Assembly (NCBI GenBank): GCA_002841885.1
Contig: PHBE01000001.1
Coordinates: 124,001 to 188,000, forward strand
Length of the DNA: 64,000 nt
Origin: Deltaproteobacteria bacterium HGW-Deltaproteobacteria-18
Lineage (GTDB): Bacteria > Desulfobacterota > Desulfovibrionia > Desulfovibrionales > Desulfomicrobiaceae
Direction of reading: 5' to 3'
The translations under genes and the position numbers were made by a program. How positions within the stretch are numbered: position 1 is the stretch's first letter; every line of letters starts with the position of its first letter. This document shows positions 24,267-60,912 of the stretch, piece by piece. The notes under the pieces are model-generated. The model was not told the origin of the DNA, searched no databases, and saw only the letters and a list, made by a program, of their open reading frames with translations.

Positions 24267-24289
24267 CTTAATGCAAAAGCCCGAGCGTT

Positions 24290-24454
24290 CCGGTGCGGCC
24301 CGGGCGAGGGCCGTCGACTGTTTGACTGAGCCAGGCATCGCAAGGCTCACGCGTTGCCTGACGCGCTGTCACGGCCTCGCGCCTTGTCACGCAACGCTTG
24401 AGCCTTACGAGGCCCGCGAAGGAGTTTCGACGGCCATCGCCCGGGGTGCACCGG
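24290..24454. repeat. Structured inverted-repeat element, family 1, copy 1
   Basis: 165 bases in the rarA/PAPS-reductase-like intergenic space. Outer arms (about 24290-24315 and 24429-24454) pair with few mismatches. An inner stem pairs 24342-24348 with 24400-24406 and 24351-24357 with 24391-24397. Between outer and inner stems lie GACTGAGCCAGGCATCG on the left and TTACGAGGCCCGCGAAGGAG on the right, which are shared with copy 2 at 36906. No reading frame. Confidence 0.8.
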
Positions 24455-24499
24455 AGCGCGACCGCGCCGTCGCTATTCCCGTTTCATGGAAAGGCATGG

Positions 24500-24519
24500 A
24501 TTCCCGCCTGCGCGGGAAT
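24500..24519. repeat. Short palindromic repeat of the ATTCCC...GGGAAT type
   Basis: Perfect palindrome ATTCCCGC-ctgc-GCGGGAAT. Similar intergenic palindromes are scattered through many proteobacterial genomes (the neisserial dRS3 is one). It lies 45 bases beyond the family 1 copy 1 element. Confidence 0.6.
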
Positions 24520-24550
24520 GACATTGAGGCGTATCAGAAACGCGGTATCC

Positions 24551-32850: not shown

Positions 32851-32892
32851 GCTTGACAGCCAATCCGGCTTGTCCTAGCCAGAAATGAGTTT

Positions 32893-32972
32893 TTTGCAGG
32901 GGTGGCGAGGAGCCTGAGATGATACCCGTTGAACCTGATCTGGATCATGCCAGCGAAGGGAATTGCAAGACG
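32893..32972 (+). promoter_or_regulatory. TPP riboswitch aptamer
   Basis: Contains the thi-box core: GGGGT in the 5' part, CTGAGAtgATACCC, GAACCTGATCTGGATCATG, and CAGCGAAGGGAA, closed by a TTGCA...TGCAA P1 helix. These are the invariant parts of the thiamin-pyrophosphate aptamer. It precedes thiM by about 75 bases and should shut down the operon when TPP is plentiful. Confidence 0.95.
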
Positions 32973-33001
32973 TAAGGCCGTAACCGGCCAATCCCCCCAT
33001 T

Positions 33002-33041
33002 CCTCGCCCCTGCTGCCCCAAACACCAACAGCAGTGCGAGG
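33002..33041 (+). promoter_or_regulatory. Expression platform: ribosome-site sequestering hairpin of the TPP riboswitch
   Basis: CCTCGC and TGCTG (33002-33015) can pair with CAGCA and GCGAGG (33029-33041). The right arm contains the GAGG ribosome site of thiM, 6 bases before GTG 33048. The left arm can instead pair with GCAGGGG and GCGAGG in the aptamer's 5' strand (32896-32911). This is a plausible two-state translational switch. No T run follows, so a transcriptional terminator is less likely. Confidence 0.6.
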
Positions 33042-33047
33042 TGCACC

Positions 33048-33863
33048 GTGTCCGATCTTGCCATGAAGGCCGCAGAGAACCTGCGCGTCCTCCGTCAGAC
33101 AAAGCCCCTGATCCACAACATCACCAATTTCGTGGTCATGAACTACACCGCCAACGCCCTTCTGGCCTGCGGTGCATCCCCGGTCATGGCGCATGCCGAA
33201 AACGAAGTCGAAGAGATGGTCGCCTACGCCGGCGCGCTGGTGCTCAACATCGGCACCCTTACCGACCTGTGGGTGGCGTCCATGCTCAAGGCCGGACGCA
33301 AGGCCACGGCGCTGGGCAAGCCCATCATCCTCGACCCGGTGGGCTCCGGGGCGACGGAACTGCGCACCGAGGCCGCCAAATCCATTCTGGCCTGGACAAA
33401 GGTCAGCGTGGTGCGCGGCAATGCCTCCGAAATCCTGTCCCTGGCCGGACAGAATGCTGCAACCAAAGGTGTGGACTCCACAAACTCCATCGAGGAGGCG
33501 GCCAAGGCCGCAGGGGCCCTGGCCCGCGAACTGGGCACGGTCCTGGCCATCACCGGCCCCACCGATCTGGTCACCGACGGCCGCCGCACGCTTGTCATCG
33601 AGGGCGGACACTCGCTCATGCCCTACGTCACGGGCACGGGCTGCTCCGCCACTGCCTTGGTCGGCGCCTTCCATGCCGTTGATCCCGACCCCGTCTCCGC
33701 CGCCGCCTCGGCCCTGGCCTTTTTCGGACTGGCCGGAGAAAGGGCGGGCGCACTGGCGGACGGCCCCGGCTCCTTTCAGATTCATCTTCTGGACGCCCTC
33801 TTCAACCTGACTCCCGAGGAACTGGCCAATGAATGCCGTATCCGCGAGGAACACCATGCCTGA
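33048..33863 (+). CDS. thiM: Hydroxyethylthiazole kinase
   Basis: 271 residues, full length. Family blocks: PLIHNITNFVVMNYTANALLA-like opening, LVLNIGTL, LDPVGSGAT, VVRGNASEI, ITGPTDLV, and the catalytic VTGTGCSATA. Phosphorylates 4-methyl-5-hydroxyethylthiazole for thiamin salvage. Starts with GTG whose ribosome site GAGG lies in the riboswitch hairpin. Overlaps thiE by 8 bases. Confidence 0.95.
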   Translation: MSDLAMKAAENLRVLRQTKPLIHNITNFVVMNYTANALLACGASPVMAHAENEVEEMVAYAGALVLNIGTLTDLWVASMLKAGRKATALGKPIILDPVGSGATELRTEAAKSILAWTKVSVVRGNASEILSLAGQNAATKGVDSTNSIEEAAKAAGALARELGTVLAITGPTDLVTDGRRTLVIEGGHSLMPYVTGTGCSATALVGAFHAVDPDPVSAAASALAFFGLAGERAGALADGPGSFQIHLLDALFNLTPEELANECRIREEHHA

Positions 33864-34491
33864 TCTGTCCCTGTACCTGGTCACGGACCGGGAACTGTCC
33901 CGTGGCCGCTCCACCGTGGACATCGTCCGCGCCGCCGTGGCCGGCGGGGTGACCTGCGTGCAGCTGCGGGAAAAGCGCTGCGCGACCCGCGAATTCGTGA
34001 CCGAGGCGCGGGCCGTGCGTGAACTGCTGGCCGGAACCGGCGTCCCGCTCATCATCAACGACCGCATCGACGTGGCCCTGGCCGTTGGTGCGGAGGGCGT
34101 GCACCTGGGCCAGACCGACATGCTCATCGCCGACGCCCGCCGCCTGACGGGACCGGACATGCTCATCGGCATCTCGGCCGAATGTGTGGCGGACGCGATC
34201 CGCGCCGAGGCCGAAGGCGCGGACTATGTGGGCGTAAGCCCCGTCTTTTCCACGCCCACCAAGACCGACACGGCCCCGGCGCTGGGGCTTGACGGCGTCG
34301 CCGCCATACGCGCGGCCGTGTCCCTCCCGCTCGTCGGCATCGGCGGCATCGGTCCCGGCAACGCGGCCGAAGTCATCCGCGCCGGGTGCGACGGGGTGGC
34401 CGTGGTCTCGGCCATCGTCTCGGCCCCCGATCCCGGGAAAGCCGCCGCCGAACTCAAAACCATCATTCATGCAGCCAAGGAGCTTTCATGA
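33856..34491 (+). CDS. thiE: Thiamine-phosphate synthase
   Basis: 211 residues. SLYLVTDRE opening, QLREKR, INDRIDVALA, GVHLGQTDM, IGISAE, DYVGVSPVFSTPTK and LVGIGGIGPGN match ThiE throughout. Joins HMP-PP to thiazole phosphate. ATG 33856 lies within the end of thiM, with GAGGAA upstream, so it is coupled; an in-frame ATG at 33829 would add nine residues. The stop overlaps thiD by ATGA. Confidence 0.95.
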   Translation: MPDLSLYLVTDRELSRGRSTVDIVRAAVAGGVTCVQLREKRCATREFVTEARAVRELLAGTGVPLIINDRIDVALAVGAEGVHLGQTDMLIADARRLTGPDMLIGISAECVADAIRAEAEGADYVGVSPVFSTPTKTDTAPALGLDGVAAIRAAVSLPLVGIGGIGPGNAAEVIRAGCDGVAVVSAIVSAPDPGKAAAELKTIIHAAKELS

Positions 34492-35303
34492 ACCAGCGCA
34501 AATATCACCGGGTACTGACCATCGCCGGGTCCGACAGCGGCGGAGGGGCGGGAATCCAGGCCGACCTCAAGACCATCGCGGCCCACGGCTGCTACGGGGC
34601 CAGCGTCATCACCGCCCTGACCGCCCAGAACACCCTGGGCGTGACCGGCATCCACGCAGTGCCCGTGGAATTCGTGGCCGCACAGATGGACGCGGTGCTG
34701 GGCGACATCGGGGCCGACGCGGTCAAGATCGGCATGCTCTTCTCTCCGGAGCTGATCCGCACCGTGGCCATGGGCCTGGCCAGACACGGGGTGGGGATCA
34801 TCGTGCTCGACCCGGTCATGGTGGCCCAGAGCGGAGACAAGCTGCTCCAGGACGAAGCCATCGACGCCCTGAAATCGGAACTCATCCCCATGGCCACGCT
34901 CATCACGCCCAACCTGCCCGAAGCCTCGGTGCTGCTGGGCCGGGACATAGCCACCCCGGGGGCGGCCATGGAGGCACTGACCGACCTTGCGGCCATGGGC
35001 CCGGGGAGCGTGCTGGTCAAGGGCGGACATCTGGAATCGGGAGACAGCGACGACGTCCTCTACATCGGCTCCGAAAAGCGCGTCGTGACCCTGCCGGGAG
35101 TGCGCATCCCGACCCGCAACAATCACGGCACGGGCTGCACCCTGTCCTCGGCCATCGCTTCGAACCTGGCCAGAGGCGAAGACATGGAAACGGCCGTCCG
35201 CAACGCCAAGGAATACATCAGCCAGGCCATCCGGGCCGGAGCCGCCTACGTCATCGGCCAGGGACACGGGCCGGTGCATCACTTCCACCGGTTCTTCGAA
35301 TAG
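34488..35303 (+). CDS. thiD: HMP / HMP-phosphate kinase
   Basis: 271 residues of the ribokinase-like ThiD family: VLTIAGSDSGGGAGIQADLKT-type opening, ALTAQNTLGV, KIGMLFS, LDPVMVAQSG, TPNLPEA, VKGGH and NNHGTGCTLSSAIA with the catalytic Cys. Phosphorylates hydroxymethylpyrimidine twice. AAGGAG precedes ATG 34488. Only salvage genes (thiM, thiE, thiD) are present here; thiC and thiG are not in the window. Confidence 0.95.
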   Translation: MNQRKYHRVLTIAGSDSGGGAGIQADLKTIAAHGCYGASVITALTAQNTLGVTGIHAVPVEFVAAQMDAVLGDIGADAVKIGMLFSPELIRTVAMGLARHGVGIIVLDPVMVAQSGDKLLQDEAIDALKSELIPMATLITPNLPEASVLLGRDIATPGAAMEALTDLAAMGPGSVLVKGGHLESGDSDDVLYIGSEKRVVTLPGVRIPTRNNHGTGCTLSSAIASNLARGEDMETAVRNAKEYISQAIRAGAAYVIGQGHGPVHHFHRFFE

Positions 35304-35305
35304 CC

Positions 35306-36067
35306 GTGCACGCTCCCGCCACCGTGCAGGCCGCGCCAGGAATCGCCCTCGAAGGCATCTCCCTCGACTTCGAAGGCCGCCCGCTGTTCTCGGATCTGAG
35401 CCTGACCCTAAGGGGCGGCCGCACGAGCTGCATCCTGGGCCCAAGCGGCTGCGGCAAATCGACCCTTTTAAAGCTCATGGCCGGCGCTCCGAGCCTGGGG
35501 TTTTCCGGGCAAATCCGTTTCGACTCCGGCGGGAATACCTCGGAACAGGTGGCCTGGATGAGCCAGAACGACCTGCTCCTGCCCTGGCTGACCTTGCTGG
35601 ACAACGTCCTGCTCGGAGCCAGGCTGCGGGGCGAACTCTCGCCCGAAAAGCGTTGCAGGGCCCTGGAACTGATCCACGAAGCGGGCCTTGCCGGATACGA
35701 GGGCAAGCTGCCTTCCGCCCTGTCCGGAGGCATGCGTCAGCGCGGGGCGCTCCTACGCACCCTCATGGAGGAGCGGCCCGTCATTCTCATGGACGAGCCC
35801 TTCTCCGCCCTGGACGCCCTGACGCGGGTGCGCCTGCAGAATCTTTCCGCGCGCCTGACCACGGGAGCGACCGTGGTGCTGGTCACTCACGATCCCATGG
35901 AAGCCCTGCGCCTGGGTCACGAAATCATCGTGCTCGGAGGCACGCCGGTGCGAGTGCTGGAAGTCATCGAACCCGCCGGTCCGCCTCCGCGCGAAGCCGG
36001 AGACTCGGAGGTGACCGGACTCTACGCCGGGCTCCTGAGACGGCTCATGAGCGGGGAGGCGGCATGA
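35306..36067 (+). CDS. thiZ: ThiZ-type ABC ATPase, probable HMP-precursor importer
   Basis: 253 residues. Walker A GPSGCGKST, signature LSGGMRQRGALLRTL, Walker B VILMDEPFSALD, H-loop VTHDPMEAL. Belongs to the nitrate/sulfonate/taurine and ThiZ branch. Start at GTG 35306, two bases after the thiD stop; no good ribosome site, so it is probably translated by reinitiation. Overlaps thiX by ATGA. Function as thiamin-precursor importer rests on its place in a TPP-riboswitch operon. Confidence 0.85.
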   Translation: MHAPATVQAAPGIALEGISLDFEGRPLFSDLSLTLRGGRTSCILGPSGCGKSTLLKLMAGAPSLGFSGQIRFDSGGNTSEQVAWMSQNDLLLPWLTLLDNVLLGARLRGELSPEKRCRALELIHEAGLAGYEGKLPSALSGGMRQRGALLRTLMEERPVILMDEPFSALDALTRVRLQNLSARLTTGATVVLVTHDPMEALRLGHEIIVLGGTPVRVLEVIEPAGPPPREAGDSEVTGLYAGLLRRLMSGEAA

Positions 36068-36813
36068 ACTTCCTGCGCCCCTTGATCCTGGCGGCAGGCT
36101 TTCTTGTCCTGTGGCAAATCCTGGTCACCCTGACCGGAGCTCCGCCGTACATCCTGCCCGGCCCCCTGCCCGTGGGCGAGGCTCTGGTCGAAAAGTTTCC
36201 CCTGCTGCTCTCACATCTGAGCACGACCCTGGCCGAAATCCTGCTCGGGCTGGCCCTGGGCACGATCCTTGGCACGAGCGCGGCCCTGGTCATGGTCCTC
36301 TCGCCGCTGCTGAAGCGCTGGATGCTGCCCGTACTGGTGATCAGCCAGGCCATCCCGGTATTCGCCCTGGCCCCGATCCTGGTGCTGTGGCTCGGCTATG
36401 GCATGGCCTCCAAGGTGGCCATGGCGGTGCTGATCATCTTTTTCCCGGTGGCGTCATCCTTCTACTCGGGCATGCAGCGCACCGAACCCGACCTGCAGGA
36501 ACTGGCCCGCATCATGGGAGCGGGGCCACTGGCCGTGCTACGCAACATCATCATCCCCTCGGCCCTGCCCGCCTTCGCCTCGGGCCTGCGCGTGGCCACG
36601 GCCGTGGCGCCCATCGGGGCAGTGGTCGGGGAATGGGTCGGATCAAGCGCAGGCCTTGGCTTCTACATGCTCCACGCCAACGCCCGCATGCAGATCGACG
36701 TCATGTTCGCGGCCTTGACCGTCCTGGCGGTCACATCCCTGACGCTCTACTTCATTGTGGACCGACTGTTGGACAGGCTGGTTTTCTGGCAGCCCAGGCA
36801 GGGGATGCAGTGA
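36064..36813 (+). CDS. thiX: ThiX-type ABC permease, probable HMP-precursor importer
   Basis: 249 residues with six predicted membrane helices and the EAA-like loop LQELARIMGAGPLAVLRNIIIP. The SsuC/TauC/ThiX family opening (LRPLILAAGFLVLWQILV) and PGPLPVGEAL are clear. Overlaps thiZ by ATGA. The binding protein thiY is normally adjacent, but here it starts 368 bases downstream, after an inserted repeat element. Confidence 0.87.
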   Translation: MNFLRPLILAAGFLVLWQILVTLTGAPPYILPGPLPVGEALVEKFPLLLSHLSTTLAEILLGLALGTILGTSAALVMVLSPLLKRWMLPVLVISQAIPVFALAPILVLWLGYGMASKVAMAVLIIFFPVASSFYSGMQRTEPDLQELARIMGAGPLAVLRNIIIPSALPAFASGLRVATAVAPIGAVVGEWVGSSAGLGFYMLHANARMQIDVMFAALTVLAVTSLTLYFIVDRLLDRLVFWQPRQGMQ

Positions 36814-36836
36814 CAGCGACGTCGTGGCCAAGCGTC

Positions 36837-36863
36837 ATTGCGAGCCCCTTAGGGCGTGGCAAT
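36837..36863. repeat. Short palindrome ATTGC...GCAAT
   Basis: ATTGC (36837-36841) pairs with GCAAT (36859-36863), and GCCC with GGGC inside. Repeats of this kind (CATTGCGAG...GCAATCC) are scattered in many bacterial genomes. It lies about 40 bases before family 1 copy 2. Confidence 0.5.
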
Positions 36864-36905
36864 CCATGTCTTTTCAGCCTCTGACCGTGACACCGTCCCA
36901 GCGTG

Positions 36906-37071
36906 CCGGTTCGGTCCGGGTCGGGGGCGGCAACTGTCTGACTGAGCCAGGCATCGTTTGTTTTCCCGTCGCCTCTCGCCCGGAGCGCGGCTTTATCTTC
37001 GGCAGCAACGACGGGAAAACATTACGAGGCCCGTGAAGGAGTTTTGGCGCCCCCGGCCCGGATCGAACCGG
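36906..37071. repeat. Structured inverted-repeat element, family 1, copy 2
   Basis: 166 bases between thiX and thiY. Outer arms start with CCGGTTCGGTCCGGGTCGGG at 36906 and pair with 37044-37071. A perfect 13-base inner stem pairs 36959-36971 with 37009-37021. The strands between the stems carry GACTGAGCCAGGCATCG and TTACGAGGCCCGTGAAGGAG, the same as copy 1 at 24290 except for single differences, whereas both stems differ in sequence from those in copy 1. Confidence 0.8.
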
Positions 37072-37181
37072 AACGCGGCCGCGCTGCACAAGCCTTTTTC
37101 TGAAAGGACGCCAAGCTTTTGTACCGAAACAAGATTTTGCTTTGCTCATTCTCCCATTCTTCAAACCACAAGGACAACCAC

Positions 37182-38117
37182 ATGAAAAAAATCACCCTCT
37201 TCCTCGCAACCCTTCTCCTCCTGGCCACCCAGGCCCAGGCCGAAAAGCTGACCGTCCTCTTGGACTGGTTCATCAATCCCGACCACGCCCCCCTCTACGT
37301 GGCTCTGGAAAAAGGCTTTTTCAAAAACCACGGCCTGGACGTGGAACTCATCGCCCCCTCCAACCCCAACGACCCGCCCAAACTCGTGGCCGCGGGCAAG
37401 GCCGACATCGCCGTGTCCTACCAGCATCAGCACCAGATGCAGGTTGCCGAGGGACTGCCGCTGACCCGCATCGCCACCCTCGTAGCCACCCCGCTCAACT
37501 CCCTGGTCGTGCTTGAGGACGGGCCCATAAAGTCCATAGCCGACCTGAAGGGCAAGACCATCGGCTATTCCGTGGGCGGTTTTGAGACCGTGCTTTTGAA
37601 AGTGATGCTTGAAAAAGAAGGCCTGACCTTGGACGACGTCAAGCTGGTCAACGTCAACTTCTCCCTGTCCCCATCCCTGTTCACGGGCCAGACCGACGCC
37701 GTCATCGGCGCGTTCCGCAACTTCGAACTGAACCAGATGGATATCGAGGGGCGTCCCGGAAGAGCCTTTTTCGTGGAGGAGTACGGGGTTCCGGCCTATG
37801 ATGAACTCATCCTCGTTGCGGCCGGCAAGAACGTGGCCGACCCGAAGCTGCGTGCCTTTGTCGATGCCCTGGAGGAAGGCGTGCAGTACATGATCAATCA
37901 TCCGGAAGAAAGCTGGAAGCTCTTTGTCGGCAATGGCCGCGAAAGCCTCGATGACGAACTGAACCGCCGCGCCTGGAGAGACACCCTGCCCCGCTTCGCC
38001 CTGCGTCCCGGCGCTCTCGACAACAGGCGCTACATCCGTTTCGCGGAATTTCTGATGCGCGAAAAGATCGTGACCGAAGTGCCTGCGCTCGACACTTGGG
38101 CGGTGGAATTGCGCTGA
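37182..38117 (+). CDS. thiY: ThiY-like HMP-precursor binding protein (NMT1/THI5-like)
   Basis: 311 residues. Signal peptide MKKITLFLATLLLLATQAQA, then LTVLLDWFINPDHAPLYVALEKGFF-like opening of the NMT1/THI5 family, DVELIAPSNPNDPPKLVAAGKADIAVSYQHQ, and GYSVGGFETV. Binds N-formyl-4-amino-5-aminomethyl-2-methylpyrimidine or a related HMP precursor in characterised homologues. AAGGA precedes ATG 37182. It would be the third part of ThiXYZ. The gene may have lost riboswitch control through the inserted repeat, or have its own promoter. Confidence 0.88.
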   Translation: MKKITLFLATLLLLATQAQAEKLTVLLDWFINPDHAPLYVALEKGFFKNHGLDVELIAPSNPNDPPKLVAAGKADIAVSYQHQHQMQVAEGLPLTRIATLVATPLNSLVVLEDGPIKSIADLKGKTIGYSVGGFETVLLKVMLEKEGLTLDDVKLVNVNFSLSPSLFTGQTDAVIGAFRNFELNQMDIEGRPGRAFFVEEYGVPAYDELILVAAGKNVADPKLRAFVDALEEGVQYMINHPEESWKLFVGNGRESLDDELNRRAWRDTLPRFALRPGALDNRRYIRFAEFLMREKIVTEVPALDTWAVELR

Positions 38118-48517: not shown

Positions 48518-48642
48518 CAGGCCGTTCAAAAATGGTGAGATGCAAGGAAACAAAGAAATCCAGGACGCGCAGTGTATCAAGCATACATAAGTGGTCTGGA
48601 TTTTTTCGCTGACGCAGCAGATTGCCGTTTTTGAGCGGCCTG
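48518..48642. repeat. Long inverted repeat, family 2, copy A
   Basis: 125 bases forming an imperfect hairpin: ends CAGGCCG and CGGCCTG, inner AAATCCAG and CTGGATTTTTTC. It shares CATACATAAG, GGTCTGGATTTTTTCGCTG and other blocks with copy B at 60791. Its right end touches the ribosome site of the adenosine-specific kinase gene. No reading frame. Confidence 0.8.
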
Positions 48643-52774: not shown

Positions 52775-53619
52775 TTACATTGCAAAACCGATTTGATGGC
52801 TTGAGCCAAACTGTGCCGGACGAAGGCATTGAATTCTGGTTCGCTCGCGATCTGATGGAGCCGCTGGGCTATGTCCGATGGGAAAATTTCCAGACTGCCA
52901 TTCAACGAGCCATTACATCCTGTGAAACAACAGGTTATGAGCCAAACGACCATTTTCGTGGCGTCACGAAAATGGTCAAGCTGGGCAGTGGAGCCGAAAG
53001 GGCTGTCGATGACTTCATGCTCACCCGCTACGCCTGCTATCTCATTGCCCAGAACGGCGACCCGCGCAAGGAACCGATCGCCTTCGCCCAAAGCTACTTC
53101 GCCATCCAGACCCGCAAGCAGGAACTCATCGAAGACCGCATGCGTCTTTTGGCGAGGATGGATGCTCGTGAGCGGCTTCGGGAATCGGAAAAAACCCTCT
53201 CTCAGAACATCTATGAACGGGGCGTCGATGATGACGGATTCGGCCGTATCCGTTCCAAAGGTGATGCGGCGCTTTTTGGTGGACACACCACGCAGGTGAT
53301 GAAAGACCGCTACGGCATCACCAAAACTCGCCCATTGGCTGATTTTCTGCCGACCCTGACCATTGCCGCAAAAAATCTGGCCACCGAGATGACCAACCAC
53401 AATGTCCGGCAGGATGATTTGCGGGGCGAGCATGCCATTACCAGCGAGCACGTGCAGAATAATGTGAGTGTGCGCGACATGCTCGGGCAGCGTGGCATTA
53501 AACCAGAGCAGCTCCCGCCGGAAGAAGACATCAAGAAGCTGGAGCGTCGGGTCAGGTCGGAAGAAAAGAAACTCGTCCAGCGGTCCGCCAAGCTGCCCGA
53601 ACCGAAAGAAGAATTATGA
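52756..53619 (+). CDS. dinD: DinD-like DNA-damage-inducible protein
   Basis: 287 residues. GIEFWFARDLMEPLGYVRWENF with the BRO-N-like fold, FMLTRYACYLIAQNGDPRKEPIAFAQSYFA, and GDAALFGGHTTQVMKDRYG match DinD, which in E. coli is SOS-induced and interferes with RecA filaments. DinD genes are often carried inside type I restriction loci, as here next to the HsdR remnant. ATG 52756 overlaps the hsdR fragment. C terminus is charged and Lys/Glu-rich. It appears intact, unlike its neighbours. Confidence 0.85.
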   Translation: MDKSTLITLQNRFDGLSQTVPDEGIEFWFARDLMEPLGYVRWENFQTAIQRAITSCETTGYEPNDHFRGVTKMVKLGSGAERAVDDFMLTRYACYLIAQNGDPRKEPIAFAQSYFAIQTRKQELIEDRMRLLARMDARERLRESEKTLSQNIYERGVDDDGFGRIRSKGDAALFGGHTTQVMKDRYGITKTRPLADFLPTLTIAAKNLATEMTNHNVRQDDLRGEHAITSEHVQNNVSVRDMLGQRGIKPEQLPPEEDIKKLERRVRSEEKKLVQRSAKLPEPKEEL

Positions 53620-53801
53620 ACCGCGAAACACGCGAAAGGCGCGAAAAAATTCTTTTCACGGATGAGTGCTACGCCGTTCAAGGGGTAGTTTTTGATGTGT
53701 ACCGGGTCGACCTGCTCGTCAATTTCGGTACCTATCCCAAAGCTGAGATCATCAGGATAGCCAACACAAACTTTCGCGTTTTTCGCGCCTTTCGCGGTTA
53801 A
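53616..53801 (+). pseudogene. Internally deleted copy of the GxxExxY gene
   Basis: 61 residues. The first 26 or so (ILFTDECYAVQGVVFDVYR) match the start of the gene at 53813 and the last 30 (DLLVNFGTYPKAEIIRIANTNFRVFRAFRG) match its end. About 80 codons, including the GxxExxY motif and the nuclease-like core, are gone, by an in-frame deletion joining VYR to VDLLVNFG. It begins ATGAACCGCGAAACACGCG, a repeat seen around the sister gene. Probably inactive. Confidence 0.8.
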
Positions 53802-54275
53802 AACTCTCAGAAATGAAGCTCGAAACACACGAAAAGGTTCTTTTCCCTGATGAATGCTATGCCATTCAAGGGGCCGTGTTCGATGTGTACCGGGAGATGG
53901 GCTGTGGCTTTCTTGAAGCTGTTTATCAGGAGTGCCTCGAAAGGGAATTTCGACTGCGGCAACTATCATTCGAGGCCCAGAAAGAGCTTGTTCTTTCATA
54001 CAAGGGCGAACAACTTACCCAAACCTACAAGCCTGATTTTATCTGCTACGGCAAAATCATTGTCGAACTGAAGGCGGTCAAAGAAATCGCCCCAGAGCAT
54101 AAAGCCCAGCTCTTGAACTACCTGAAAGCAACCGGCCTGGAACTTGGCCTGCTCGTCAACTTCGGTAGCCATCCAAAGACCGAAATTGCCCGCATCGCCA
54201 ACACCAACTTTCGCGATTTTCGCGCCTTTCGCGGTTAGAACTCTCAGAAATGAACCGCGAAACACACGAAAGGGG
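53617..54275. repeat. Tandem duplication of a GxxExxY unit with inverted ends
   Basis: Units begin with a CGCGAAACAC(A/G)CGAAA block (53622, 54255; decayed at 53819) and end with TTTCGCGCCTTTCGCGGTT followed by ARAACTCTCAGAAATGA (ending near 53817 and 54252). The ends are inverted relative to each other (AACCGCGAAA versus TTTCGCGGTT). A related AACCGCGAAAAGCGCGAA stands before dinD (52712). Confidence 0.75.
53813..54238 (+). CDS. GxxExxY protein (PD-(D/E)xK-like)
   Basis: 141 residues. The motif GFLEAVYQECLERE gives GxxExxY; YKPDFICYGKIIVELKAV carries the D and ExK-like residues of a PD-(D/E)xK nuclease fold; LLVNFGSHPKTEIARI is the standard end. Function of the family is unknown; genes are scattered and mobile. 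The gene is bracketed by AACCGCGAAA-type sequences in opposite orientation at its two ends and sits next to a broken copy. GxxExxY genes in other genomes show similar surroundings. Confidence 0.87.
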   Translation: MKLETHEKVLFPDECYAIQGAVFDVYREMGCGFLEAVYQECLEREFRLRQLSFEAQKELVLSYKGEQLTQTYKPDFICYGKIIVELKAVKEIAPEHKAQLLNYLKATGLELGLLVNFGSHPKTEIARIANTNFRDFRAFRG

Positions 54276-60790: not shown

Positions 60791-60912
60791 CAGACCGCTG
60801 AAATAAATGGCGAGATGCCGGAAAGCGAAAAAATCCAGAACACGCGATCATGAGGATACATAAGCGGTCTGGATTTTTTCGCTGGCGCAACAGATCGCCT
60901 TTTGGGCAGCCT
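60791..60912. repeat. Long inverted repeat, family 2, copy B
   Basis: 122 bases: left end CAGACCG, right end CAGCCTG, and a perfect inner stem GCGAAAAAATCCAG / CTGGATTTTTTCGC. It shares GATACATAAG, GGTCTGGATTTTTTCGCTG and CAGAT-GCC blocks with copy A at 48518. It sits 10 bases past the end of the M20 gene and could act as its terminator. Confidence 0.8.

Follow-up and report, generated by a model that had tools for sequence, protein, structure and literature searches.

The window analyzed here, a 64,000-nucleotide stretch of contig PHBE01000001.1, contains two copies of a repeat whose stems differ in sequence while each still pairs with its own partner. What does this repeat fold into, does selection keep the fold, and does it act as RNA, as single-stranded DNA, or only as a remnant of a mobile element? 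The initial annotation left a REP/RAYT-type element and an undescribed structured RNA both open. Both copies were found where that annotation had put them, and the fold it described was reproduced, with z-scores of -9.1 and -7.9. The positions given (24290 to 24454 and 36906 to 37071) were right, but the lengths were slightly short; the copies span 24285 to 24459 and 36901 to 37076, because the outer stem is 33 bp long and pairing stops sharply there. The near identity of the "loop" strands between copies, next to stems that differ yet match their own partners, was also confirmed. This part is constant, as described, but not simply unpaired, since it contains short paired segments and a co-varying one. 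The element represents an uncatalogued family of folding, intergenic elements of about 175 to 200 nt in Desulfomicrobium. The parts of the two copies are as follows, with the basis of each assignment in parentheses.

24285 to 24317, + strand: copy 1, 5' arm of the outer stem, 33 bp (sequence, fold and pairing profile)
24318 to 24340, + strand: copy 1, left core CTGTTTGACTGAGCCAGGCATCG (sequence and alignment)
24341 to 24405, + strand: copy 1, inner stem and apical loop, variable in sequence (fold and covariation)
24406 to 24426, + strand: copy 1, right core TACGAGGCCCGCGAAGGAGTT (sequence and alignment)
24427 to 24459, + strand: copy 1, 3' arm of the outer stem (sequence, fold and pairing profile)
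36901 to 36933, + strand: copy 2, 5' arm of the outer stem, 33 bp (sequence, fold and pairing profile)
36934 to 36956, + strand: copy 2, left core CTGTCTGACTGAGCCAGGCATCG (sequence and alignment)
36957 to 37022, + strand: copy 2, inner stem and apical loop, variable in sequence (fold and covariation)
37023 to 37043, + strand: copy 2, right core TACGAGGCCCGTGAAGGAGTT (sequence and alignment)
37044 to 37076, + strand: copy 2, 3' arm of the outer stem (fold, pairing profile and the sites in relatives)

Nine genomes of the genus carry the element at the site of copy 2, their stems altered in concert. In all nine, the copy is kept between genes that we read from their sequences as an apparent permease gene and a substrate-binding protein gene. 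This region (32888 to 38114) has a TPP riboswitch (56.1 bits with the Rfam model), and the genes after it resemble an operon for thiamine synthesis and transport. Short palindromes adjoin both copies, at 36837 to 36872 (gtcattgcgagc...) and at 24493 to 24525 (...attcccgcctgcgcgggaatgac), and they resemble the CGTC-tagged REP repeats described previously (PMC3733652). Elsewhere in the window, direct repeats D2, D6 and D16 (81 to 84% identity) lie near CGAAA-rich sequence at 53617 to 54274, and a 51-base direct repeat with 88% identity occurs twice, 12 kb apart, at 48580 to 48630 and 60853 to 60903.

To describe the family, a covariance model (R1) was built and used in a profile search. It gave 44 matches in the source genome, about 40 of which were full copies; the others were one partial copy located where a contig ends, matches to the reverse strand of true copies, and one marginal hit. 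The sequence GACTGAGCCAGGCATCG, with up to 3 mismatches, was found at 60 places in this genome, mostly in copies of the element. Further copies were present in relatives, including two closed genomes, G015 with 42 copies and its close relative G009 with 53, and several Desulfomicrobium species carried roughly 40 to 55 copies per genome. In all, 168 distinct copies were gathered. They were intergenic, sometimes in tandem about 88 to 330 bp apart, and head-to-head pairs also occurred; one genome, G026, had four near-identical tandem copies about 226 bp apart (L299:8925-9790).

The covariation initially seen between two copies extended to the whole family. An RNAalifold consensus of 31 copies from the source genome contained 44 pairs, 31 of them with at least one double change. 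For 26 diverse sequences from several families, with the structure set by hand, 93.0% of the stem cells were paired versus 63.6% after shuffling and 33 to 44% after sliding. Double changes were found at 44 of the 49 pairs of this set, and the covariation score was 0.776 versus 0.205. Nearly every copy paired, and the stem sequences differed from copy to copy. Across the 168 copies, the outer stem was paired position by position over 33 bp and then ended; conservation stopped near the stem ends, and more than about 50 bases away from the core, sequence information was down to background. Within the core, GGC pairs with GCC and TCGT with ACGA, and a GA-NN-GA segment faces another GA-NN-GA. The NN pairs between the conserved GA/GA steps co-varied, as CT/AG in 117 cases and CC/GG in 51 with few intermediates, and as GC/GC in two copies from distant families. 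The GA/GA steps themselves probably form tandem sheared G.A pairs, judging from the sequence. This covariation fits a conserved fold of the structured-RNA kind. Protein coding was rejected, as the core-to-core spacing varied from 63 to 68 nt and not in threes.

Which of the two strands folds was examined through mismatches flanked on both sides by Watson-Crick pairs. Among the 168 copies, there were 269 G.T/G.U combinations versus 34 A.C combinations; therefore, the strand carrying CTGTYTGA...GAGTT is the folding strand. The bias had the same sign in copies of lagging polarity (87:15) and in leading-oriented copies (9:1), and it therefore tracks the element and not the replication strand. A mutation bias of the replication strands as the cause of the G.T excess was rejected because the leading-oriented copies, albeit with few sites, showed the same sign. 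RNA would be the natural reading of such an excess, although folded single-stranded DNA could show it as well.

We then compared G015 with G009, where 37 of the 42 G015 copies could be assigned a syntenic copy, a few of these assignments being common to tandem copies. Between orthologs, 14 double Watson-Crick changes were found, versus 2.2 under random placement (maximum of 7 in 500 trials), while changes from pair to mispair or back numbered 31 versus 67 expected. The cores were 96.5 to 97% identical, the arms 92% and the inner part 93%, figures that are somewhat inflated by a filter at an element identity of at least 0.8 and that include tandem copies that are not independent. The adjacent intergenic DNA was only 52 to 63% identical (49% for unrelated DNA), and the neighboring genes were 86 to 91% identical. 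These data show purifying selection on the element in place, at fixed orthologous sites. Presence/absence differences between close species also exist. The corresponding sites in G009 and G015 were not clean, and no target-site duplication was recognizable at them; the one apparent empty site still held a stretch resembling part of the 5' flank, as after a deletion. One copy was inverted against its flanks (G015:C1:1040194 versus G009:C1:1127517), as template switching or recombination between the arms would give.

The initial annotation took compensatory change as the mark of selection on structure. That selection is supported by the covariation over many copies, the double changes between orthologs, the purifying selection in place and the asymmetry between G.U and A.C; the stems do co-vary, but as proof by itself compensatory change is too strong an argument, because polymerase template switching also makes paired changes and is a documented source of them in hairpins (PMC8794818). 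The element could thus be an old palindromic mobile element without function, its arms kept paired by such switching and not by selection, and the inverted copy and the placement in promoter-poor intergenic space are consistent with this. We consider this explanation unlikely. Switching should repair the G.A and other non-Watson-Crick positions of the core as well as the G.T pairs, all of which persist, and conservation of the core and inner stem far exceeds that of the adjoining intergenic DNA. Template-switch repair may contribute to the covariation of the stems, but it leaves three features unexplained: a core whose mispairs are conserved, the asymmetry between the strands and the conservation of copies at their sites. 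An element still mobilized in trans by a transposase, of the REP/RAYT or MITE type, is more doubtful again. It would account for a dispersed, patchy, palindromic family with tandem and head-to-head pairs and with presence/absence differences between close species. Nevertheless, most copies occupy shared orthologous sites, and a search for a linked RAYT transposase found 14 Y1_Tnp loci without a single copy. Y1_Tnp was not found in the copy-bearing genomes G003, G007, G014 and G041 (about 6, 16, 26 and 50 pattern matches, respectively), some of which are incomplete assemblies (63% for G007). An autonomous, gene-carrying form was also rejected, as at none of the loci examined did a left core and a distant right core enclose a gene; at the low-copy loci among them no partner gene was linked, the neighbors being ordinary-looking by their sequence and different from locus to locus. 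The element, with its 33-bp outer stem, core and inner stem, is also much longer than the 20- to 40-bp palindromes of REPs. The REP/RAYT reading was therefore abandoned; the element is independent of RAYT genes, which are neither required nor linked. Of the two options first proposed, an undescribed structured RNA is the more likely. No Rfam 15 family scored above its gathering threshold, and the scores below threshold were far under the curated cutoffs; a weak match to the Methylosinus-1 RNA (15.7 bits versus 145 needed) was taken as chance. No description of the element was found in the literature.

The placement of the copies bears on how the fold might act. In G015 and G009, the flanking genes were convergent in 42 cases, tandem in 22 (++) and 23 (--), and divergent in only 5, so that copies avoid divergent promoters and show no preference for gene direction. 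GC skew and the direction of the rRNA genes put the origin near 3.5 Mb; on this basis, 81 of the 95 copies in these two closed genomes lay on the lagging-polarity strand, tandem copies not being independent. Gene strand does not explain this orientation, since 64 of the sampled genes were leading and 88 lagging. Several syntenic copies that lie in opposite chromosome halves in G015 and G009 had switched their absolute strand accordingly. These observations, including the independence from gene direction, raise the possibility of a role in DNA, where the hairpin of the sense strand would form during replication or repair, aligned with the fork, and be recognized by a protein of replication, segregation or repair. 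We regard this as a possible but less favored explanation. The better-folding strand corresponds to the nascent lagging strand or the leading template and not to the exposed lagging template, short relatives in G636 and G633 show no polarity by eye, and Desulfomicrobium includes species without a single copy. That the copies are separate small-RNA genes, every one with a promoter and a terminator of its own, would fit the strong RNA-like covariation and the use of G.U pairs. This reading is nonetheless highly improbable, for the best upstream promoter scores (7.24) did not exceed those of shuffled sequence (7.46), the mean longest T-run was 3.0 downstream versus 3.4 on the other side, where an intrinsic terminator would predict enrichment, and sequence information fades outside the stems.

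Taken together, we favor, with a probability of about 0.5, the reading that these are intergenic elements kept by selection on the fold of one strand, which spread long ago and now act mainly as RNA. RNA appears to be the more likely acting form compared with single-stranded DNA. The plan of the fold is an outer stem of 33 bp that is free in sequence, a noncanonical core (CTGTYTGA...GAGTT with GA/GA steps) and an inner stem-loop. The family would have spread as a nonautonomous element, and the folded strand would now act within intergenic transcripts or transcripts reading through the site, in which a host protein would bind the core and the stems would probably serve as a rod that gives shape. 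Several points stand against this RNA reading: no promoter or terminator signal is common to the surroundings of the copies; their placement does not depend on gene direction, which is unexpected for a simple 3'-UTR role; an RNA role leaves the strong replication orientation unexplained; and the G.T excess could also arise in folded single-stranded DNA.

The distribution of the family is patchy. Within the genus, the element was present in 11 of the 16 genomes and absent from 5. A second family of the same order, f4, which appears to include Desulfonatronum contigs, had many copies, and other families had few. In another order of the phylum, it was found in 20 of 116 genomes, with the shared core reduced to CTGTYTGA, a stem and GAGTT within the outer stem. 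This order also has short forms, about 80 nt long, in which the inner hairpin takes up some 20 nt; G636, G635 and G633 gave 53 to 100 matches to the short-form pattern versus 1 to 8 for the reversed pattern, and one short form matched a second model, R2, with an E value of 9e-8. The short and long forms are likely akin. Searches of 2.9 million viral contigs with one exact pattern and of plasmids with one BLAST query gave no match to the element. Tentatively, the forms of about 190 nt and 80 nt, which share only the core and outer stem, might belong to a CTGTYTGA/GAGTT two-stem superfamily that spans two or more orders of sulfate reducers and whose Desulfomicrobium copies have been domesticated as chromosome-wide, replication-oriented folded nucleic-acid sites for a putative host protein.

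Dispersed hairpin repeats are common in bacteria and are usually treated as selfish debris. By description, the element is like ERIC, YPAL and bcr1, which are long intergenic hairpins of about 130 to 170 bp. Compensatory changes are known in bcr1 repeats, and KOPS- and Chi-like polar sequences, whose orientation follows the direction of replication as that of our element does, are short duplex motifs of about 8 bp and not folding elements. YPAL measures 168 to 169 bp and has a conserved predicted structure (PMC2267715). The element differs from ERIC, YPAL and bcr1 in its host organisms, its free stems around a noncanonical core, its replication orientation and the measured purifying selection. 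REP repeats (GTAG/CGTC) are likewise intergenic, palindromic and biased to unidirectional and convergent gene pairs (PMC3733652), as is the element, which is about 175 to 200 nt long in contrast to their smaller size. In the scale of its covariation and its noncanonical core it is like the structured RNAs of Rfam, none of which it matches. What sets this family apart is dozens of copies per genome, conserved in place above the level of the neighboring genes, in which the stems are free and the noncanonical core is fixed. It allows structural selection to be told apart from template-switch repair and supplies an alignment ready for an RNA-family database, and it makes the function of intergenic palindromes testable in a cultured species.
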